Assembly (NCBI RefSeq): GCF_900105535.1 | Contig: NZ_LT629779.1 | Coordinates: 2,542,001-2,606,000 of the forward strand | Length of the DNA: 64,000 nt | Direction: 5' to 3' | DNA from: Pseudarthrobacter equi | GTDB lineage: Bacteria; Actinomycetota; Actinomycetes; Actinomycetales; Micrococcaceae | Notes under the pieces: generated by a model | Database searches by the model: none | What the model was told of the DNA's origin: nothing | What the model saw: only the letters and a program-made list of their open reading frames with translations | Part shown: piece after piece, positions 11,179-19,675 of the stretch | Layout of the letters: the number at the start of each line of letters is the position of its first letter | How positions within the stretch are numbered: the first letter of the stretch is position 1 | Position numbers and translations under genes: made by a program

Positions 11179-11646
11179 ATGGCTGACGAAACCCCTGTGC
11201 CTGCCGCACCTGCTGTGCCTGTTGAACCCACCACGCCGGACGAAACCACGGCGGGCCCCAGACCGGTGGACCGCGTCCTCGAGTTCATCCGGATCCTGGA
11301 AGCCGGCGGGGGAGCGGCCGAGATCAGGCCCTACCTGGCTGATACTTTCACGCTCGTGGAGGCACCCCATCTGCTGGCGCCCGAGGGCTCCACCCGCACC
11401 CTCGCGGACGTGTTGGCAGGCGCCGACCAAAGTTCGGAGGTGGTGGCCAACCAGGAGTTCACCATCAGGAGGACAACCAGCGAAGGCGGACGCGTGGCTG
11501 TCGAGGCTGACTGGTCCGCAACCGTGCTGATGGACATCCGCTACTGGGACCGCGGTGAGACTATCCGGGCGCGGACCTCGTCGGTCTTCGAAGTCCGTGA
11601 CGGTCTGATCGTCAGCCAGGACAGCTACGACTGCTACTTCCGCTGA
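11179..11646 (+). CDS. NTF2/SnoaL-like protein
   Basis: A 155-residue protein with a Pro/Ala/Thr-rich N-terminus (residues 1-30), then a cone-shaped alpha+beta fold resembling NTF2/SnoaL proteins: helix PVDRVLEFIRILEAGGG, an ADTFTLVEAPHLL strand and C-terminal strands RARTSSVFEVRDGLIVSQDSYDCYF. Such folds bind small hydrophobic ligands or act as cyclases/isomerases; the active residues cannot be assigned. The 3' end overlaps that of the convergent FAD monooxygenase by 35 bp. Whether it works with the polyketide operon next to it is unknown. Confidence 0.75.
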   Translation: MADETPVPAAPAVPVEPTTPDETTAGPRPVDRVLEFIRILEAGGGAAEIRPYLADTFTLVEAPHLLAPEGSTRTLADVLAGADQSSEVVANQEFTIRRTTSEGGRVAVEADWSATVLMDIRYWDRGETIRARTSSVFEVRDGLIVSQDSYDCYFR

Positions 11647-12814
11647 CAACGCTTGCGTCGAACTCCTGCTGCATGGTGAACCGCCCGGCAACCCATTGAT
11701 TGACTACAGGGGACGCCGCGGCCGCGCCGATCACGGAGTTCCGCAATGCCAGGACCGGGGCAGGCAGCGGCCGGCCCAGCAGCATATTGATTTCAGCTTG
11801 GCGCCGCGCCCGCAGGGCCGCCTGGTAGCGGCCGCGCTCGTAGTCGCGGAAGTCCTCCGGGGTATGCCTGCCGGTGACTGTCTGGACGATCAGCGGGGCC
11901 AGTGCCTGGGCGTCGAGCCAGCCCAGGTTCATTCCCTGGCCGCCGATGGGGCTGATTTCGTGGGCGGCGTCGCCCACCAGGATCACGCGTCCGGACACAG
12001 TCCTGCGGGCGATCGATGATCTGACGCTGAAGGCGCTGAGCATGGTGTTGGTGGCGGCCTCCGGGTGAATTTCGGTGCGGTCCGCCACGAGCCGGGCCAG
12101 TGCCTCCGGTGTTGCGCCGCCGACTGGTTTTCCCAGCCGGACCACCCAGCGGCGGACGGCGCCCGGCAGCGGAAACGACTCTACGATGCCGCTGCTCTCA
12201 AGGAAGAGCACGGCCCGGTCACCAAATTCCGGGTGGTCCGCGAAGTCACCCATCACATAGTGGTCCGGGTAGGTTTTCCGCTGGACCGGGACGCCGATCA
12301 GGTCCCTGATCCCGGACCGTGGACCGTCCGCGCCGATCACTATCGACGCCCGGAACGTACTGCTCCCTTGCGCGGCACCCCCGGCGGGCCTTGCCGACAC
12401 ACTGGCGCTGCCGCCGTCGTGCGCTACTTCAAGTACCTCCATCCCGCTCACGAGCGCGCCGCTGTCCAGGGCGCGCACCTGCTCTTCCAGCAGCTGCTCG
12501 GTCCGGTACTGGGGCAGCGAAAGGACGAACGGGAATGCTTCCGATACTCCGGCGAACGGCATGTGGCCCACGGTCCGGCCACGGCTGACTGCCAGCCCGG
12601 AACGGATGGGGACGCCTTCCGCCACCATCCGGCGGGCGATGCCCAGCTGGTCCAAGGCGGCGAGAGCCGGCGGATGGATGCCAATGGCCCGGGAATGATG
12701 GTTCCTCGCGATCCTCCGCTCCAGGACGCGGACGGAAACGCCTTGCCGAAGGAGGACGGCGGCGAGGTACAGGCCCACCGGTCCGCCCCCGACGATGACC
12801 ACATCAGCGTTCAT
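11612..12814 (-). CDS. FAD-dependent monooxygenase of the type III PKS operon
   Basis: A 400-residue group A flavin monooxygenase (PHBH fold). It shows the dinucleotide-binding GGGPVG (residues 9-14), the DG motif in VIGADGPRSGIR and the GD motif LVGDAAHEISPIGGQGMN. These enzymes hydroxylate aromatic or quinone-like substrates using NAD(P)H and O2. It is the third gene of a minus-strand operon with a type III polyketide synthase and a methyltransferase and overlaps the methyltransferase by 11 bp. In related clusters (Streptomyces srs, Actinoplanes agq) such enzymes oxidise alkylresorcinol rings to hydroquinones or quinones. That substrate is inferred here. Confidence 0.88.
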   Translation of the reverse strand: MNADVVIVGGGPVGLYLAAVLLRQGVSVRVLERRIARNHHSRAIGIHPPALAALDQLGIARRMVAEGVPIRSGLAVSRGRTVGHMPFAGVSEAFPFVLSLPQYRTEQLLEEQVRALDSGALVSGMEVLEVAHDGGSASVSARPAGGAAQGSSTFRASIVIGADGPRSGIRDLIGVPVQRKTYPDHYVMGDFADHPEFGDRAVLFLESSGIVESFPLPGAVRRWVVRLGKPVGGATPEALARLVADRTEIHPEAATNTMLSAFSVRSSIARRTVSGRVILVGDAAHEISPIGGQGMNLGWLDAQALAPLIVQTVTGRHTPEDFRDYERGRYQAALRARRQAEINMLLGRPLPAPVLALRNSVIGAAAASPVVNQWVAGRFTMQQEFDASVVSGSSSRSCPG

Positions 12815-13502
12815 GGCCGTCCTTGCGCAGTGCCAGTACCTGGTGGAAGGCTGCCCCGGGTTCCACGGTCCAGCCCGGGGGAGTGAGTGCGGACAGCTCC
12901 GCTGCCGTGTAGCTGCGCCGGATCGAGGTCAGCCCGTCCTCCCGGATGAAAGAGTTCTGGAGCGGGAGCGTGGCGACGCCGAAAAGGGCGAAAGCCAGGG
13001 GGCTGCGGCGCAGGTCGTTGTGCAGGGCCTTCTTCCGGGCAAGCACATCCGAGTGGGCCAGCAGGTTGTTGAATTCTTCCGTTCCGAGGTGGTGCAGGAC
13101 ATGGTTGGAAATAACGACGTCGAACGCGGCACCTTCGCCAACCAGCTCGGCACTGTGCGCCTGCCGGAAGTCCACGCCACGGGTCGGCGGCCGGTTGAGG
13201 GCGAAGGCAGCCGCGCGCGGATCGGGGTCGACGCCGGTGATCCGGACAGCCAGCCCGTCCTTGGCTGCCCAGCGGGCAAGCATGACGGCGAGATCTCCGC
13301 CGCCGGAGCCGATGTCAAGGATGCTGGCCGGTGCTGCTGACAGGACAGGACGCAGTTCGTTGACGTACAGCTGCCTCCACCCGGACACGATCCTGTTGAT
13401 ATGGCCGAACTGGCGGTAGGTGTTCTCCAGCTTCCGCGCATCACAGTCCGGCAGGTCCATTTGTTCCAGCTCGCCTGTCGCACGCTCGGGCCAGATGCGC
13501 AC
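12804..13502 (-). CDS. Class I SAM-dependent methyltransferase of the type III PKS operon
   Basis: A 232-residue methyltransferase. Motif I is ILDIGSGGGDLAVML (about residues 61-75), motif II the acidic end of strand 2 in TGVDPD, and the post-I region includes FDVVISNHVLHHLG. The N-terminus (LENTYRQFGHINRIVSGW) is typical of UbiE/phytoene-type lipid or quinone methyltransferases. It starts 4 bp after the polyketide synthase stop and overlaps the monooxygenase by 11 bp, so the three are probably translated as one unit. It may O- or C-methylate the polyketide product. It is not of the membrane ICMT type used by the srs cluster. Confidence 0.88.
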   Translation of the reverse strand: MRIWPERATGELEQMDLPDCDARKLENTYRQFGHINRIVSGWRQLYVNELRPVLSAAPASILDIGSGGGDLAVMLARWAAKDGLAVRITGVDPDPRAAAFALNRPPTRGVDFRQAHSAELVGEGAAFDVVISNHVLHHLGTEEFNNLLAHSDVLARKKALHNDLRRSPLAFALFGVATLPLQNSFIREDGLTSIRRSYTAAELSALTPPGWTVEPGAAFHQVLALRKDGHER

Positions 13503-13506
13503 CGGG

Positions 13507-14703
13507 TCAGGCCACCGGGATTTCCTGCAGCAGCTGATCCTGCCCCGCCTCTGCGGTGTTTTCCGCCCCCGGCGCCTGCCGCAGCTTGGTCAGGAGCGCT
13601 GTTTCCACCGTCAGGCCGGGGCCGAACGCCATCGAACAGATCCGTTCGTCTCCCGGCTGGCTGTCCTGTTCGAGGATGTGCCGGAGGACAAACAGCACCG
13701 TGGCGCTGCTCATGTTCCCGTAGTTGCGCAGGACTTCACGGGCGGGGACCAGCTGCTCGTCGGTGAGGCCCAACCGGGTCTGGACCTTGTCAAGGATGCT
13801 GCGGCCGCCCGGGTGGATGGCCCAGTGCCTGATGCCGGTGTAGGGGAGTGCTTCGAGGTGGGGCTCGCGGGCCAGCAGCGGCTGCAGGGCGCCCACGATG
13901 TGATCGTCGATGATGTGCGGGACGTAGTTGCCCAGCACCATTTCGAAGCCGTGGTCGCCGATGTTCCAGGCCATGGAGTCCTCGCCAACCGGCGTCAGCA
14001 CCGTTTCGAAGTGGTCGAGCTGCAGCAGGGCGGTTTCTTCCGCCGCCGGGTTGGCCGTGACGATGGCGGCCGCGGCTCCGTCGGCAAACAGCGCCGATCC
14101 CATGATGGTGTCCGGGTCATTGGACGTCCGGACGTGCAGGGAGCACAGTTCAGCACAGACCACGAGGACGACGGCGTTTGGGTCGGCTTCGCAGAACAGT
14201 TTGGCCGCGCGGAGGGCCGGGAAGGCCGCGTAACAGCCCATGAAGCCGAGGTGGTAGCGCTGCACCGACGGGTCGAGGCCCAGCTCACGGACGATCTTGT
14301 AGTCAGGCCCGGGGTTGAAAAAGCCGGTGCAGGAGACAGTCACCAGGTGAGTTATGTCAAGTAAATCGAGATCCGGGCAGGCTTTGACTGCGGCAGCGGA
14401 CGCCTGCACAAACAACTTGGTGGCTTCCCGGGCGAAGATGTCGTTGCGGACCTTCGTGCTGGGATTCAGGAGAAGCCCCGAGTCCGGGTCATAGAACTGT
14501 GGATCTTCAGAGCGGAATGCGTTGGTGAGCTCGTCAACGGCCGTGAACCTGGTCTCAATGGCAGCGGAATCGAAACAAGTGCTCACCAGCCGTGAACCGA
14601 GCCTGCTGAGTCCCGGTTGCGCTGCGAAAACGTCACGCGCCTCCGCCTGGATCAGCTTTGTTGCCGGAACTGCAGTTTCAAGTGAACGCACGTAGACCGT
14701 CAT
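13507..14703 (-). CDS. Type III polyketide synthase (chalcone/stilbene synthase family)
   Basis: A 398-residue thiolase-fold enzyme. The catalytic triad is visible: Cys125 in VTVSCTGFFNPG, His297 in HWAIHPGGRS and Asn330 in NYGNMSSA. Type III synthases elongate a CoA starter with malonyl-CoA and cyclise the chain. The downstream methyltransferase and FAD monooxygenase resemble operons making methylated alkylresorcinols or alkylquinones, so phenolic membrane lipids are the best guess. The starter is unknown. Only a weak ribosome-binding site precedes the ATG. It is the first gene of the operon, and the candidate mobile element begins about 120 bp upstream. Confidence 0.93.
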   Translation of the reverse strand: MTVYVRSLETAVPATKLIQAEARDVFAAQPGLSRLGSRLVSTCFDSAAIETRFTAVDELTNAFRSEDPQFYDPDSGLLLNPSTKVRNDIFAREATKLFVQASAAAVKACPDLDLLDITHLVTVSCTGFFNPGPDYKIVRELGLDPSVQRYHLGFMGCYAAFPALRAAKLFCEADPNAVVLVVCAELCSLHVRTSNDPDTIMGSALFADGAAAAIVTANPAAEETALLQLDHFETVLTPVGEDSMAWNIGDHGFEMVLGNYVPHIIDDHIVGALQPLLAREPHLEALPYTGIRHWAIHPGGRSILDKVQTRLGLTDEQLVPAREVLRNYGNMSSATVLFVLRHILEQDSQPGDERICSMAFGPGLTVETALLTKLRQAPGAENTAEAGQDQLLQEIPVA

Positions 14704-14805
14704 TGACCCATTCTTAACGAGCCCATCCGCAAAGACAATGGCTCAGCGGTCTGACCTGCGGAATCGCCGCTCCTGCCCCTCTCCAAGCAGGTTAGTGGAC
14801 TGGCA

Positions 14806-14832
14806 GCGGGACGTGTTGATGTGGGACGAGTT
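14806..14832. repeat. Left-end repeats of the candidate element
   Basis: Two direct copies 15 bp apart, GCGGGACGTGTT (14806-14817) and GTGGGACGAGTT (14821-14832). The second is the inverse of the copy at 18293-18303. These repeats may be recombinase-binding sites or the element end. Confidence 0.45.
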
Positions 14833-14858
14833 GCTGTTCTAATCAGCTCGAAATCGCT

Positions 14859-14864
14859 TAGGCT
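14859..14864 (+). promoter_or_regulatory. -10 box of a leaderless promoter (TAGGCT, 6 nt, ATG)
   Basis: TAGGCT, 6 nt, then the ATG at 14871, identical in layout to the helY promoter. No Shine-Dalgarno sequence is present. Confidence 0.45.
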
Positions 14865-14870
14865 CGGGCA

Positions 14871-15191
14871 ATGAGTAGACCTGCGGATTCCCCAAAATTC
14901 GCCCGTGCCCGGGTTGCAAAGGTCATGGAAGTGCTGATCTTCGTGTGTTGGGGGGTCATTGCCGTCAGTTTTGTCGCCGTCACCCTAGCCGGGCATATGC
15001 GACCTCTGTCTTTGGTGACACTTGCTGGCGCGATGGCTTGTCTGGCGGGGATCCTTTTCGTTCTCTTCTCGAGCTGGAAAAAGTGGGCGCATGACACCAG
15101 CTACTCCCTCTCAGGCAAAGGACTTGGCCTCATTTTTGCATTGGTGGGTGTAAGCCTGTTGTTCGTCGTGTTGACGGTGGTCCTGCAATAG
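14871..15191 (+). CDS. Small three-helix membrane protein (possible element passenger)
   Basis: A 106-residue protein with three hydrophobic segments (about residues 18-40, 45-67 and 83-105) and a short basic N-terminus. No family motif is recognised. It converges on the recombinase operon: its stop is 6 bp from the stop of the last recombinase gene. It lies inside the proposed element boundaries, so it may be a passenger, or a host gene beside which the module inserted. It is visibly less GC-rich than its neighbours, and a leaderless -10 box precedes the ATG. Confidence 0.65.
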   Translation: MSRPADSPKFARARVAKVMEVLIFVCWGVIAVSFVAVTLAGHMRPLSLVTLAGAMACLAGILFVLFSSWKKWAHDTSYSLSGKGLGLIFALVGVSLLFVVLTVVLQ

Positions 15192-15197
15192 ATGGGG

Positions 15198-16343
15198 TCA
15201 TCGGTGAAGCGTCGAGATGTATTGCGCATAGTTTGCTGATGAGGCGAGGGCGTGGCGATCTATCGTGGTCGGGGAGTAGCCGAGGGCTTCGGCGATGATG
15301 GCCACTGGGGCGAGTTTGGTGAGTTCGTGGAGGGTTCCTAGTCTGGCCGCCCTGCTGCTGAACGAAGCGCTGAGCTGCTCCGTGAGGGTTGAGGCCTGGA
15401 GGTGCTGGCCGGGTAAGCCTCCTCGGAATACCCAGTTGCTGTTGGGGTGCGCTGCTGTCTGATGGTGGGTTGGGGTGGCTGCGAGTTCTCGCCAGGGTTC
15501 ATCGAGCGGTGGCGTAAGTGCGATTTCGACGGTTCCGAGCGTGATGGTGACGAGTTCCTCTGTCACGGTGACGTTGTCCCAGGTTAGTTGGACGATGTCT
15601 GAGACTTGTTGGCCGAAGACCAGGATGAGGATGGCTGCGGCGCGGTGTCGAGGGTTCATGTCGGTCGTGTGGCTGAGATTGGTAACGAGTTCGGTCTGGG
15701 CGGCGGCGTCGAGCCGCGGGCTGGTGCCGCGGCGGTGAGGCTGCAGTTTCAGGGACGGGTCGATGAGGTTGGTCTTGATTGCCCAGTCAAGAAAGCGTGA
15801 AGCGATGCCTCGTGTCGTGGGGCCTTCTGCCTGCCATCGGTCCAGGTGCGCCTGGTTCAATTGCGCGAGTTCGGCGCCTTGATCGGTGAGCCAGTTCAGC
15901 AGTTCGATAGCGACGGTGACTGCCTGTTTGGCCCGCAGGAACGTTCCTCGGGTGACTGCGTCCATCTGGTTCATGCGGCGCTGGTGGTGCCAGCGGATAT
16001 AGCGACGGGTGATGTCGCGGTGGCGCGGGTTGGTGATCCGGTCGAGGGCCTGCTCGGCCCAGTCGCTGAACCTAGTGCTGAGTTCATCGCGGCGCGGCAG
16101 CGCGTTGTGTTCGACCAGTAGGCCGCGGACGTATTCGCGGGTGCGCGATGCCGGTAGTTCGTCGAGGCGGGCGTGGGTGATCACAGGTTCGGCAGCGAGT
16201 TGTTGGAGGAACTCGGCGACGTGTGGCTGCTGGATCCAGGTGAGGCCGCTGTTAGCGCGTTTCATGGACTTCAGAGCGGTGGCGACTGCCTGGAGTTCGG
16301 CCGGAGGGCGGCTGGTTTTCCGGCGGGTTGAGGATCCGGTCAA
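15198..16343 (-). CDS. Degenerate tyrosine-recombinase-family protein lacking catalytic residues
   Basis: A 381-residue protein, last of a four-gene minus-strand operon. The C-terminal half resembles an integrase catalytic domain: FGQQVSDIVQLTWDNV (about 243-258) aligns with the usual G-L-R-x-x-E-L motif but has Gln in place of the first catalytic Arg. ARLGTLHELTKLAP (333-346) aligns with the H-x-x-R box without the Arg. LGYSPTTIDRHALA (354-367) aligns with the LGH...Y motif without the His and with no Tyr at the nucleophile position. The N-terminal half is helical, like core-binding domains. The frame is uninterrupted, so this looks like a maintained non-catalytic partner rather than a pseudogene. 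An alternative start at 16265 would cut the overlap with the upstream gene from 92 to 14 bp. Confidence 0.7.
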   Translation of the reverse strand: MTGSSTRRKTSRPPAELQAVATALKSMKRANSGLTWIQQPHVAEFLQQLAAEPVITHARLDELPASRTREYVRGLLVEHNALPRRDELSTRFSDWAEQALDRITNPRHRDITRRYIRWHHQRRMNQMDAVTRGTFLRAKQAVTVAIELLNWLTDQGAELAQLNQAHLDRWQAEGPTTRGIASRFLDWAIKTNLIDPSLKLQPHRRGTSPRLDAAAQTELVTNLSHTTDMNPRHRAAAILILVFGQQVSDIVQLTWDNVTVTEELVTITLGTVEIALTPPLDEPWRELAATPTHHQTAAHPNSNWVFRGGLPGQHLQASTLTEQLSASFSSRAARLGTLHELTKLAPVAIIAEALGYSPTTIDRHALASSANYAQYISTLHR

Positions 16344-16653
16344 CGGTCATGGCAAGGATGCATGACCAGCATCGGTTGCCTGAGTGGAGTTCGTCTTCTT
16401 TGCCGCATCCGGCGCAGTCGATGTTGAGGCGGACGCCGGAGCATTTCCGGCATGCCGGCCGGGTGTCGACGCGGCCAGGCAGTACCCCTTCGTGGCCGCA
16501 GGCGCAGGTGCCGCGGGTTCTTTTGGCTTGCTGGTAGCAGTAGCCGCAGATTCCGCCGTCGGGCCAACGGACCGCGATTTTGTGGTGTTCGGCGCAGCGG
16601 GCGCAGGCTTCCGGGCATTTTTTGGGATCGCTGGCTTTGCGGGGCCTAGTCAT
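16252..16653 (-). CDS. Cysteine-rich zinc-ribbon-like protein of the recombinase operon
   Basis: A 133-residue protein with about six paired-cysteine groups, including CPEACARC, CGYC, CACG, CRKC, CAGC and CWSC, in the pattern of tandem zinc ribbons, followed by a basic C-terminus. The start is the ATG at 16653, because it overlaps the stop of the HTH gene in the 8-bp sequence ATGACTAG, a translational-coupling layout. It may be a DNA- or protein-binding accessory factor for recombination. No homologous family of known function is recognised. Confidence 0.7.
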   Translation of the reverse strand: MTRPRKASDPKKCPEACARCAEHHKIAVRWPDGGICGYCYQQAKRTRGTCACGHEGVLPGRVDTRPACRKCSGVRLNIDCAGCGKEDELHSGNRCWSCILAMTVDRILNPPENQPPSGRTPGSRHRSEVHETR

Positions 16654-16999
16654 CTTCGTCCGGTGGCAGTACCCGGATCCGTCGGGCGATCGGCGCCCCG
16701 GGTGTGATGCCCAGGTCTTCTGGCCGTTTTGGGGCGTTGGCAGTCTTGGCGGCGCGCATCTGCACGTAGGGTTCAAAAAGGTCGTTGGGCGTGCATTCGA
16801 GGATGTCGCAGAGTGCTGCGAAGGTCTGGGCGGGAATGCGTTCGGGTGTTCCGGTGACCAGACGGTGGACCTGGGCGTTGGAGAGGTTGATGCCCCGGGC
16901 TTTGAGCAGGGGAAGCAGCTCGGTGGTCTTCCAGAGGTTTCGTTGGGCCATCAGCTGCCGGAGGTTCCAGCGGTAGCCGATCCGTCGCTGTTCAGCCAT
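16646..16999 (-). CDS. XRE-family helix-turn-helix protein of the recombinase operon
   Basis: A 117-residue protein with a Cro/CI-type DNA-binding domain at residues 10-75 (LLPLLKARGINLSNAQVHRL as the HTH core, then the helix TFAALCDILECTPNDLF) and a charged tail. It probably regulates the operon or helps set recombination direction, as excisionase-like or repressor proteins do. The ATG overlaps the recombinase stop in the 8-bp ATGGCTGA. A perfect 11-bp dyad just upstream of the recombinase gene is a candidate operator for it. Confidence 0.82.
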   Translation of the reverse strand: MAEQRRIGYRWNLRQLMAQRNLWKTTELLPLLKARGINLSNAQVHRLVTGTPERIPAQTFAALCDILECTPNDLFEPYVQMRAAKTANAPKRPEDLGITPGAPIARRIRVLPPDEDD

Positions 17000-18122
17000 G
17001 GCTGTTCCCCTCGCCGTCGCCCTTGCGTAGCCGCTGAGCGATCATTTTCTGGATGGTCTTCTGTTTGAAGTCCGCCGACACGGAAGTATAGAGGGCCGTG
17101 GTGGAGGAGTAGCTGTGCCCGACCTGCTGCTGGATAAACAGGGGGTCGTAGCCGGCCTCGATCAGATGCGTCACGTACGAGTGCCTCAGCGTGTGCAGGG
17201 TCAGTTCTTCCGGGAGCCCGGCGATTTGCCGCACCCGCTGGAACGAACGGTCGAAGTTGCGGTGAACAGTCGAGCCGGAGCGCTCCGATGGCCACAGGCT
17301 GGCGGACCGGTCAGCGGTAGGGAATCTTTTGCGGCCGTCAGAGGAGAGCCAGTACTCAAGGAGCCCCACCACCCAGTCGAATTCCGGGACGGTGAGCACG
17401 GTCCGGCGGCGGGGCCCTGAACCCTTGGTGCCCTTTGCCCAGCGCACCTGCAGCGCTCCGAAGCGGCCGAACTGTTCAACGTGCGGGTTGGGGCCGAAAT
17501 CGACGTACTCAAGCATCACCAGTTCACGCCGGCGCAGCCCGTAGGCATAGGCGACCTTGAACGCCGTCGAGTCCCTCAGTGCCGGCAGCCAGCGCTTTGA
17601 ACCCTTGGCGAACTCGGTGTCGACCAGGTCGTCGGCGGCGTCAAAGAACGACTGCAGTTCGGTCCGTGTGAACGCCCGGCGGCGTGCCGGCACGGCATCG
17701 TCCGTCGTATGCCGGGGAGAGTTCCACTCGAAGACCACCTGCACCGGTATGTCGGCGAAGACCCGTTCGCAGAATGACGCCCAGCCGTAGCGTCCGTCCG
17801 TCAGGTAGGAGCAGAATGCCCTGATGGCTCCGGAATTAGCCCTTAGGGTTGTCAACGCGAGTCCTTTATCAGAACTGCGCCGGTCCGCCAGGAACTCGTC
17901 CACGTGATGCGCCGACCACGTCCACGGATACTCGTTGGCGTGCTCCTGGAACAGTTGGACCGTCCCGCACGAGCTCTTGATGTAAGACGTCGACAGGCCG
18001 CGTGCCAGCATCTGCGCACGCCAGCCATCCAGCATCGCCTCGAAAACGCGATCCTCGGCCCGCAGCAGCCCGACATTCACGTTGGTCAGAAAGGCAGGAA
18101 TCCGCCCAGGTTCGATGCTCAC
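16992..18122 (-). CDS. Tyrosine recombinase/integrase with complete active site
   Basis: A 376-residue recombinase. An N-terminal SAM-like core-binding domain (residues 22-115) is followed by the catalytic domain with Arg197 (YGLRRREL), a Lys at 230 or 233 (WAKGTKG), His310-x-x-Arg313 (LHTLRHSYVTHL), His336 (VGHSYSSTT) and the nucleophile Tyr345. It is therefore predicted to be active. The start is GTG at 18122 with a weak GGTGA upstream. It heads a coupled operon with an HTH protein, a cysteine-rich protein and a non-catalytic recombinase relative. It is unlikely to be the host XerC or XerD because of this operon and its long N-terminus. Confidence 0.9.
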   Translation of the reverse strand: MSIEPGRIPAFLTNVNVGLLRAEDRVFEAMLDGWRAQMLARGLSTSYIKSSCGTVQLFQEHANEYPWTWSAHHVDEFLADRRSSDKGLALTTLRANSGAIRAFCSYLTDGRYGWASFCERVFADIPVQVVFEWNSPRHTTDDAVPARRRAFTRTELQSFFDAADDLVDTEFAKGSKRWLPALRDSTAFKVAYAYGLRRRELVMLEYVDFGPNPHVEQFGRFGALQVRWAKGTKGSGPRRRTVLTVPEFDWVVGLLEYWLSSDGRKRFPTADRSASLWPSERSGSTVHRNFDRSFQRVRQIAGLPEELTLHTLRHSYVTHLIEAGYDPLFIQQQVGHSYSSTTALYTSVSADFKQKTIQKMIAQRLRKGDGEGNSHG

Positions 18123-18141
18123 TCACCAAACTGTACGCAAA

Positions 18142-18164
18142 AATCTCTCATTTAATGAGAGATT
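18142..18164. promoter_or_regulatory. Perfect 11-bp dyad upstream of the recombinase (candidate operator)
   Basis: Arms AATCTCTCATT and AATGAGAGATT separated by one T, centred 31 bp before the recombinase GTG. On the minus strand it is followed by a short T-run. It could be the operator of the XRE protein, a recombinase core site or an AT-rich attenuator. The 8-mer TCTCTCAT recurs at 18277. Confidence 0.6.
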
Positions 18165-18265
18165 ACGTTGCTAGCCCGCGCCGCCACGTACAGCCACCGG
18201 TTCATGCCACTCGGCTTCGAACTCTCACTGCAACCGTTTGACCTGTATGAACACCCAAAAGCAAC

Positions 18266-18303
18266 GTGGGACGGGTTCTCTCATCTACTTCTACTCGTCC
18301 CAC
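18266..18303. repeat. Right-end inverted repeat of the candidate element
   Basis: Arms GTGGGACGGGT (18266-18276) and ACTCGTCCCAC (18293-18303) differ at one position and are 16 bp apart. The outer arm mirrors the left-end copy at 14821-14831. The spacer holds TCTCTCAT, shared with the 18142-18164 dyad. Confidence 0.5.
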
Positions 18304-18306
18304 TCA

Positions 18307-18334
18307 AACGCCGATAATCTACATTATGTAAAGT
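18307..18334 (+). other. dif: Candidate dif site (XerCD chromosome dimer resolution)
   Basis: A 28-bp sequence with the 11-6-11 layout of dif: XerC arm AACGCCGATAA, centre TCTACA, XerD arm TTATGTAAAGT. By eye it matches the E. coli dif, as I remember it, at 19 of 28 positions, including the inner halves of both arms (ATAA and TTATGT). It is intergenic, AT-rich against its surroundings, and lies among genes that sit near the terminus in mycobacteria. It is 3 bp from the candidate element end. No second copy is seen in the window. Confidence 0.68.
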
Positions 18335-18355
18335 AACTGTAATCAGCCGCGCTGG

Positions 18356-18379
18356 AAGGGGCGGTCACCCGCTCCCCTT
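18356..18379 (-). terminator. Probable terminator after the papain-like lipoprotein gene
   Basis: Stem AAGGGGCGG / CCGCTCCCCTT with one bulged base and a TCAC loop, 32 bp downstream of the minus-strand stop at 18411. There is no clear T-run. Confidence 0.45.
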
Positions 18380-18410
18380 ACCCTGTGTGCGAGGCCTTTA
18401 GGCAGGCCCA

Positions 18411-19232
18411 TCAGGCGGCGGCCTGTGGAAGCACCAGGAGGTATCCGGCGGGCAGCTGCGAACTCCATCGCCGGGGTTCCCTGACAACAAACTGGGTGGC
18501 GAGTTCCTCAGGCGTCAGCAGGCTGTTGGGTGCCGGTGACGGCCCCCATTGTTGGCTGCCGTAGGGATAGAGCGGGTCCAGGACATTGACTCCGGTAACA
18601 CGGAAGTCCTGGAATTTCGCAGGATCGCCCATCGACTCAAAACCGCTCATCACCCATGCATGCCGGCCGCTCCACATCACCAGGCCCACCGGCTGGCCCG
18701 TTTCGGCGATCGCACGCGCCGCCGCCTGCAGGGCGGCCCCGTAGTCGGCGATGCTGACCACGCTGTAGGGACCCATCCCGGAAGCGGTGAGCACCTGCGC
18801 CCAGCCGTATGGGTTGGCACCGTTGAAGGAATCGGATGACCGTGCGCGGGCCAGTTCCCACAACTCCCCCTGCTGCGCACTGTCCGACCATGTTCCCCCA
18901 CCTGTGTCGTCGATCAGGTTGTGGGCCATCTGGATGCTCGCCGCAACGCACCAGTCGAAGGTGTACTGCGGCACGAAGTCACCATCCCGGTACAGATTGA
19001 TGGCATAGGCGCCGGGCTCAGGCGGCGGAGTGACAGCAGCGAGGGGCGCCGGTGCTGTGGTGGAAGCACTGGGCTGTGAGGCCTGCTCAGCAGTCCCGGC
19101 CGCCGGTTGTACGGTCGCCAGGGGCGAAGCGCCGCCGCCAGATGTATCAGTGCCGTTGACCGGGGTGCATGCCACAAGCAGGCTGGCCAAGGCTGCCAGC
19201 CATATGGTGTGACGGGGGCGCGCGCCGTTCAT
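18411..19232 (-). CDS. Lipoprotein with papain-like (peptidase C39-type) domain
   Basis: A 273-residue exported lipoprotein. The signal peptide ends in the lipobox LLVAC with the lipidated Cys at residue 22, followed by a long Ser/Thr/Ala/Pro linker. The folded part starts near residue 80. FDWCVAASIQMA supplies a likely nucleophile Cys, SGRHAWVMSGFES a His and VNVLDPLYP the following acidic/Asn position, the order found in C39-like and other papain-fold peptidases. The substrate is unknown. It follows a 49-aa membrane protein gene by 12 bp on the same strand. A TAGACT box overlaps the stop of that small gene and could give a second promoter. Confidence 0.75.
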   Translation of the reverse strand: MNGARPRHTIWLAALASLLVACTPVNGTDTSGGGASPLATVQPAAGTAEQASQPSASTTAPAPLAAVTPPPEPGAYAINLYRDGDFVPQYTFDWCVAASIQMAHNLIDDTGGGTWSDSAQQGELWELARARSSDSFNGANPYGWAQVLTASGMGPYSVVSIADYGAALQAAARAIAETGQPVGLVMWSGRHAWVMSGFESMGDPAKFQDFRVTGVNVLDPLYPYGSQQWGPSPAPNSLLTPEELATQFVVREPRRWSSQLPAGYLLVLPQAAA

Positions 19233-19244
19233 GACCGTTCCAGT

Positions 19245-19394
19245 CTAGCGCCGGACGCCTATGCCGGCCCCGACCACCGCCCCCAGGCCGAGTCCAAGCG
19301 CGAAGCCCAGGAAGGGGCTGTCAAAGAATGCCAGCCCGATGGCGATGCCCAATGCAGCGCCGAGCAGGCAGCAAATCCAGAGCGGCTTGTTCAC
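19245..19394 (-). CDS. 49-residue glycine-rich membrane protein
   Basis: A short frame of 49 codons starting at GTG (19394) behind a strong ribosome-binding site, GGAGGAACC. The product begins MNKPLWICCLLGAALGIAIG, continues through FFDSPFLGFALGLGLG and ends GAGIGVRR. It is one or two glycine-zipper-like membrane helices with a basic end that should stay in the cytosol. The stop is 12 bp before the papain-like lipoprotein start, so the two form an operon. The strong ribosome-binding site and regular hydrophobic/glycine pattern argue that it is real despite its size. Confidence 0.7.
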   Translation of the reverse strand: MNKPLWICCLLGAALGIAIGLAFFDSPFLGFALGLGLGAVVGAGIGVRR

Positions 19395-19675
19395 GGTTCC
19401 TCCAACGCAGTCAATCGTCCAGCGGGCAGGCGTAGAACAGAATCTACTTCATCCAGCCAAACCTCCCCGAGACCGCCTTCGGACAGGTAGCCCGCGGCCG
19501 GCAAGTCGGGTACTGCCTACGGATGCCAAACGGCTTCCGGTGCGAATATCGTCGTTCCCCTAAGGCGCCCTCAATCCGGACCAGCCTGCCGGCAGAGCCT
19601 GGTGGCGGCGTCTCCAAAAGCCGCCTGCGCCTATGAAAATGGTGCCGGTGCAACTTCTTAGCGCCAGGACGTCCG

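Follow-up and report, generated by a model that had tools for sequence, protein, structure and literature searches.

Two questions are raised by the locus at 18307–18334 of the window, the term used here for the whole 64-kb stretch of DNA that was analysed (genome bases 2542001–2606000): whether a 28-bp sequence found there is the chromosomal dif site, and what the recombinase-bearing sequence that abuts it might be. Sites of this kind, where copied circular chromosomes get untangled, are kept by most circular chromosomes and by some plasmids. A sequence-only reading had described the 28-mer as an intergenic, AT-rich XerC/XerD site of 11-6-11 layout, single in the window, and had placed the replication terminus at it on condition that this probable identification is correct. 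The site is as follows:

18307–18334, + strand: chromosomal dif, with XerC arm AACGCCGATAA, centre TCTACA and XerD arm TTATGTAAAGT

The 28-mer had the 11-6-11 layout and contained 9 G or C bases in 28; it fell between an ORF ending at 18122 and another starting at 18411, which agrees with the description of it as intergenic and AT-rich. A recount against the E. coli dif again gave 19 of 28 positions as equal. The earlier reading had proposed a search of the whole genome and an alignment to actinobacterial dif predictions. Only one copy was found in the window, where none of 100 shuffles matched at ≤3 mismatches, and a search of the 4,459,078-bp genome, also run at ≤3 mismatches, showed the 28-mer to be unique there too. 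The alignment gave strong agreement: among dif predictions for Actinobacteria, that for Frankia alni, as quoted in PMC3025954, was equal to the window site at 24 of 28 bases and different at 4. The chromosomal dif and XerCD system described in the available text of that source resembles the window site in its 28-bp length, 11-6-11 layout, inner arms (GATAA/TTATGT), single occurrence and location near the terminus, with no notable difference beyond the four bases that separate it from F. alni.

The position of the site was consistent with this identity. The start of dnaA lies near 339532, which puts the antipode near 2569071, and dif was 8,764 bp away from it (-0.2% of the genome). When dif was sought in relatives by a pattern allowing ≤2 mismatches, it was present in 35 of 36 relatives from the same genus (the exception being a 68%-complete genome); of 22 relatives from the order, 6 had it. 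Of these 35 chromosomal-type sites, 28 had TCTACA as their centre. Dif-like sites on six plasmids that were fetched had centres other than TCTACA, and the same pattern search found additional dif-like sites, again with other centres, on contigs of ~15–150 kb. dnaA was located in 24 genomes and offsets were computed for the 18 that had a dif coordinate; these ranged from -7.7 to +7.3%, with 13 of 18 within ~3%. The genome also encodes homologues of the proteins that would be required: XerD (340.8 bits against a cut-off of 329.6), FtsK (FtsK_SpoIIIE, 223 bits) and XerC, which was the best family for its protein at 322.2 bits, 13 under the NCBIfam cut-off of 335.15.

Base composition was a poor guide to the terminus. 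In 43 stretches covering ~0.86 of 4.46 Mb, GC skew hardly departed from zero on either replichore (positive in 12 of 21 stretches on one and in 10 of 22 on the other) and was too weak to locate a turning point, and the jump in GC skew near 18 kb inside the window was local. A local excursion of both GC skew and AT skew was observed at 14000–18000, roughly coincident with the element described below, and could mislead a terminus call based on skew. Polar octamers were more informative. The octamer CGGGGGAG was selected as the most strand-polar in 31 stretches remote from the presumed terminus and origin, where its polarity was 70:1 (z 8.2; the highest z in 20 label shuffles was 4.5); over the sampled stretches it was 97:2. 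Within the window its + strand occurrences were limited to 11307 and 12876, and ten - strand occurrences followed between 20416 and 62124, while in other stretches from 2.16–2.96 Mb the ratio was 6:1 left of dif and 0:9 right of it. The strand flip was thus bracketed between 12876 and 20416 (7.5 kb), and dif falls inside the bracket. From its distribution, the octamer is a candidate FtsK-guiding motif for these bacteria.

Antipodal position, presence in 35 of 36 relatives, the match to Frankia, the Xer and FtsK homologues and the octamer flip upheld the proposal of an XerC/XerD dif. The identification of 18307–18334 as the chromosomal dif is therefore supported, and the site itself is ordinary. 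The claim that the replication terminus is here held in part: dif is a marker for the region of the terminus, and replication does not have to end exactly at dif, as argued in PMC3025954.

What is not ordinary is the sequence on the left of the site, between dif and the chromosomal flank, which has the following parts:

14799–18306, unstranded: type A dif-edge element of 3508 bp, filling the interval from the left chromosomal flank to dif and delimited by the match to plasmid p232 and the empty site of genome G060
14799–14833, - strand: far element end, reading CAACTCGTCCCACATCAACACGTCCCGCTGCCAGT outward, with ACTCGTCCCAC common to the proximal end
14871–15191, + strand: cargo ORF, 106 aa, hydrophobic, 100% identical in p232, no family found
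15198–16776, - strand: Rec2 region, zinc-ribbon and recombinase-like, in two overlapping ORFs in different frames (15198–16343 and 16252–16776)
16646–16999, - strand: HTH protein, 117 aa, overlapping Rec1; PF13443, 60 bits
16992–18122, - strand: Rec1 tyrosine recombinase, 376 aa; PF00589, 65 bits; R, HxLR, GH and Y motifs
18268–18306, + strand: dif-proximal element end, with inverted repeat GGGACGGGT...ACTCGTCCC; similar sequence precedes dif in type A elements

Plasmid p232 of Arthrobacter sp. Rue61a was 97% identical over window positions 14798–18332, the homology ending at the end of dif. In p232, Rec2 is a single ORF of 484 aa; the window copy may be immobile, because its Rec2 is split over two frames. 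Those far ends that were located are conserved and terminate in TGCCAGT or a variant of it. Read outward (...TGCCAGT), the far end resembles the outer dif arm that the element would have displaced. The motif was assigned in 36 of 61 rows; some of the 25 rows without it were short loci, and for 4 of the 25 the end was placed by a comparison of copies. A larger, 5-kb unit marked by degenerate sites in p232 had been considered and was dropped once the motif at the far end had been recognised. Between Rec2 and the far end, 29 of 31 elements had an ORF of at least 50 aa; these ORFs were mostly different from one another and some are perhaps spurious. No Rfam family matched 14000–19500 of the window at the gathering threshold.

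The full catalytic set was found only in Rec1 among the proteins of the element. In an alignment of 30 Rec2 proteins the N-terminal cysteines were largely retained; by eye, Q or P occupied the position of the Rec1 catalytic arginine and there was no HxxR at the expected place, while a tyrosine near the C-terminus was invariant in two alignments. Matches of Rec2 to PF00589 were weak (15 of 25 members at E≤0.01, with scores of 23.4–27.4 bits against a cut-off of 27.1), and comparison of the Rec2 and Rec1 profiles failed to link the two; for these reasons Rec2 is called recombinase-like with reserve. Rec2 is apparently an inactive partner of Rec1.

The relationship between Rec1 and dif was then compared among homologues. 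The sample comprised 115 Rec1 matches in 128 loci, from which 24 fragments and 11 identical proteins were removed to leave 80 on the tree; a dif-like site was counted near Rec1 if it had ≤4 mismatches of 16. The type A clade (n = 25, support 1.0), which includes the window, had such a site in 23 of 25 cases with the XerC arm toward Rec1. The dif core was 175–191 bp from Rec1 (113 bp in L262); in the window, Rec1 starts 187 bp from the 23-bp core. The type B clade (n = 24, support 0.996) had the site in 22 of 24 cases, at 232–367 bp and with the XerD arm toward Rec1, the weakest being L250 with 4 mismatches. Misses in the two clades were L257, L264, which had 154 bp of upstream sequence, and two outer copies beside another element: L248, which abuts the far end of the dif-proximal copy, and L249, where the arrangement is similar. 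For comparison, 1000 control segments of 600 bp were drawn at random from the same loci, dif sites included; ≤4 mismatches, at any place and in any orientation, were reached in 53 of them. The prediction was also tested on plasmids of Kocuria rosea and Frondihabitans sucicola that were fetched later: in both, the site lay 188 bp from the Rec1 start as extrapolated and was oriented as predicted, with 1 mismatch in one plasmid and 0 in the other.

Elements of both types are found at the dif of chromosomes and at dif-like sites of plasmids. Their clades were not sisters on the midpoint-rooted Rec1 tree (supports 0.75–0.95), and the two sides of dif may therefore have been colonised independently. 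Among the 31 Rec1 proteins outside both clades, L165 had a good dif-like site, L191 and L268 had weak ones and 28 had none, which indicates that dif targeting is not a trait of the whole recombinase family. Most of the Rec1 relatives in L167–L194, L240–L242, L267–L269 and L275, at ~38–53% identity, lack a good upstream dif-like site, and for that reason other targets may exist; near-identical copies in G022 could reveal one. Rec1 matches at E≤1e-20 were found in 55 of 121 genomes of the genus and in 212 plasmid records, numbers that include distant relatives which need not target dif. At chromosomal dif itself, 33 loci were inspected (the window and 32 of the 35 relatives with a site): type A queries found Rec1 genes or fragments beside dif in 10, G020 having a fragment only, and nothing in 23, among them G003, which is cut at a contig end on the right side. 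Two plasmid loci had further features. In L012 (plasmid p232, 2573–8534), type A and type B three-gene modules stand back to back around one dif-like site, and in L014 (5640–6969), genes annotated as a Pycsar effector and cyclase lie by a plasmid dif-like site, opposite a type A element.

Genome G060, which has no type A element, provided an empty site (locus L273), since its left flank runs directly into dif. Its flanks and those of the window were 91.9% identical on the left (1222 bp) and 89.0% identical on the right (2569 bp). On the opposite side of dif, G060 carries a type B element; the window lacks one there. Immediately left of the junction, 110 flank bases aligned ungapped, with 93 identical; the alignment reached the first base of dif in G060 and, in the window, position 14798, where the far end begins. 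This pair alone leaves the junction uncertain by a few bases, because only 6 of the 14 columns next to it match. Sharper empty sites were found on plasmid-sized contigs (L265 against L082, 98.5% over 199 bp; L080 against L265, 88.8% over 197 bp), where the alignments began 2 and 4 bases from the junction respectively. A counterpart abutting dif was found for 13 of 33 far ends in the loci compared, with an offset of 0 in 11 cases, of 1 in one case and of 3 in one poor match; the other 20 had no such counterpart in those loci, one of them being too short to test. Flank bases 14794–14798 were not repeated before dif, indicating no target duplication there, and neither a motif search nor inspection by eye found a dif remnant at the left junction. 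Junctions could be placed to within a few bases, and at that resolution a 6-bp footprint of the Tn554/SE type was not clearly seen at the far end.

Copies within single genomes were also instructive. Those of G017 (99.7–99.9% identical) stood beside target centres TCTACA, TTGATA and TTGACC; those of G062 (99.8–99.9%) beside TGGAGA, TCTACA and TGGATA; and those of G115 (92–96%) beside TGAATC, TCTACA and TGAAGA. Since copies from the same genome differ in the centre, the dif centre and the outer bases of the arm are part of the target, with the element beginning beside them. Several far-end counterparts were, by eye, the proximal ends of older elements, so that newer copies land between dif and those already there. 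Nested arrays in which far ends abut the proximal ends of older elements were seen at dif in L055, L256, L064, L069, L248 and L238. In L256, three far ends are spaced by ~138 bp and may belong to miniature elements that lack recombinase genes.

Comparison of sequences thus established position, orientation, junctions (to a few bases), empty sites, differing target centres and nesting. For the window element, the data argue against exchange at the centre of dif and place the insertion immediately beyond one arm. It is very probable that host XerC/XerD and FtsK use this dif and that 14799–18306 is a single-cargo transposon landing at dif by means of its recombinase module. In the simplest mechanism Rec1, aided by the HTH protein and Rec2, would join the element ends. 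It would then catalyse strand exchange within the few bases farthest out in one arm of dif, which would be the XerC arm for type A and the XerD arm for type B, presumably through a circular or copied intermediate. The complex might recognise bare dif DNA or Xer-bound dif, in the latter case perhaps in contact with XerC/XerD. The 28-bp dif would remain intact beside the new copy, and because it stays intact, chromosome dimer resolution should not be harmed.

Other explanations of the locus were considered. The three-gene module could be a resident accessory that aids resolution of chromosome dimers or plasmid multimers at the adjacent dif, rather than an inserted transposon, and its fixed distance and orientation to dif would suit such a role. 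This is improbable, given that 23 of 33 chromosomal dif loci lack an adjacent Rec1 match (with one of those 23 truncated by the end of its contig), and given the mirror-image types, empty sites, nested copies and varying cargo. It is more improbable still that the 28-mer is a plasmid-type dif-like site imported by the element, with the true dif elsewhere. While the closest copy of the element that was found does sit on a plasmid, p232, the site is also present at the corresponding position in G060, which lacks a type A element, there is no second site in the genome and the position is antipodal; moreover, the TCTACA centre is that of 28 of 35 chromosomal-type sites in relatives, whereas the six fetched plasmids have other centres.

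Integration after the fashion of IMEX was also weighed. These are dif-integrating phages and islands without a recombinase of their own, which rely on host XerCD to exchange strands in the dif centre and have dif at both ends. They share with the dif-edge element the use of dif as an attachment site. A mobile element has reportedly been found at the dif of Legionellales (PMC9765430). A plasmid or island with its own dif-like site might have been integrated by host XerCD at the centre of chromosomal dif, and the module does occur on plasmids beside dif-like sites. The chance of this is very small: a second dif is absent at the far end, the centre is the chromosomal TCTACA, the flank joins the outer edge and not the centre, as the empty site of G060 also argues, and the element has its own recombinase, whereas IMEX exchange occurs at the centre. 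Its own recombinase, the edge junction and the lack of a second dif exclude the element from IMEX.

The transposon reading was therefore set against other known systems. Closest among the dif hunters found is the IS1202 family (ISAjo2 type), which likewise inserts at chromosomal dif and at plasmid pdif, in one orientation and without disrupting the site (PMC10132070). Members of that family have a DDE transposase, 24–26 bp TIRs and a 3–5 bp target duplication, and insert 3–5 bp from the XerC side only (PMC10132070); the window element, by contrast, has a tyrosine recombinase module (PF00589), lies ~0 bp from the arm and belongs to one of two lineages on opposite sides. Membership of IS1202 was ruled out by the PF00589 recombinase and by the lack of a target duplication at 14794–14798. 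Tn554 and its actinobacterial relatives are similar in having tyrosine recombinases and a small third protein, and in occurring on actinobacterial plasmids and chromosomes (PMC3414803). As described in the available text, Tn554-like elements have a recombinase of 611–828 aa and one of ~350 aa, mostly with TnpC (PMC3414803), whereas proteins of the dif-edge element are 376, 117 and ~484 aa, with the full catalytic set only in Rec1. Membership was rejected, there being no second recombinase >600 aa; Rec2, at ~484 aa, lacks R and HxxR by eye.

SE elements have two RHRY recombinases, Tfp and Srap, and RIT elements have three recombinases (PMC10214605). Together with GInt, they resemble the dif-edge element in their recombinase gene sets and target specificity, and both SE and GInt have a recombinase-like protein without RHRY; however, their gene content differs, and dif targeting is not described for them in the available text of PMC10214605. 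The part of the tyrosine recombinase classification PMC8138268 that was available contained no group like the dif-edge family, and a literature search with thin coverage of subscription papers and preprints returned no account of tyrosine-recombinase elements at the dif edge. The family is apparently undescribed. Tyrosine-recombinase transposons and dif-targeting elements are already known as kinds, and the dif-edge element is a variant of them. A stronger reading can be offered only tentatively, at somewhat short of an even chance: that these elements form a distinct Actinomycetota class of single-cargo transposons, whose recombinase complex reads the Xer site, possibly through dif-bound XerC (type A) or XerD (type B), and inserts flush with one arm.

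The chromosomal genes on either side are:

13507–14703, - strand: type III polyketide synthase, left of dif
18411–19232, - strand: first chromosomal gene right of dif, 273 aa, no family found

The type III polyketide synthase was within 9 kb of dif in 28 of the 32 relatives that were fetched. In the window it forms a cluster at 11612–14703 with a methyltransferase and an FAD oxidoreductase.

Dif-edge elements may explain part of the variable gene content near dif in these bacteria, and the fixed geometry of element and dif could aid dif finding in actinobacteria. If the two sides were colonised independently, dif would be a two-sided, growing cassette array, a possibility that is held jointly with the distinct-class reading and just as tentatively. 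A transposon that lands at the edge of dif without breaking it would acquire a long-term refuge, a route between plasmids and the chromosome, and a position to which the division machinery comes. With such a system one could also ask experimentally how one arm of a Xer site is picked by a tyrosine recombinase whose partner is apparently inactive.
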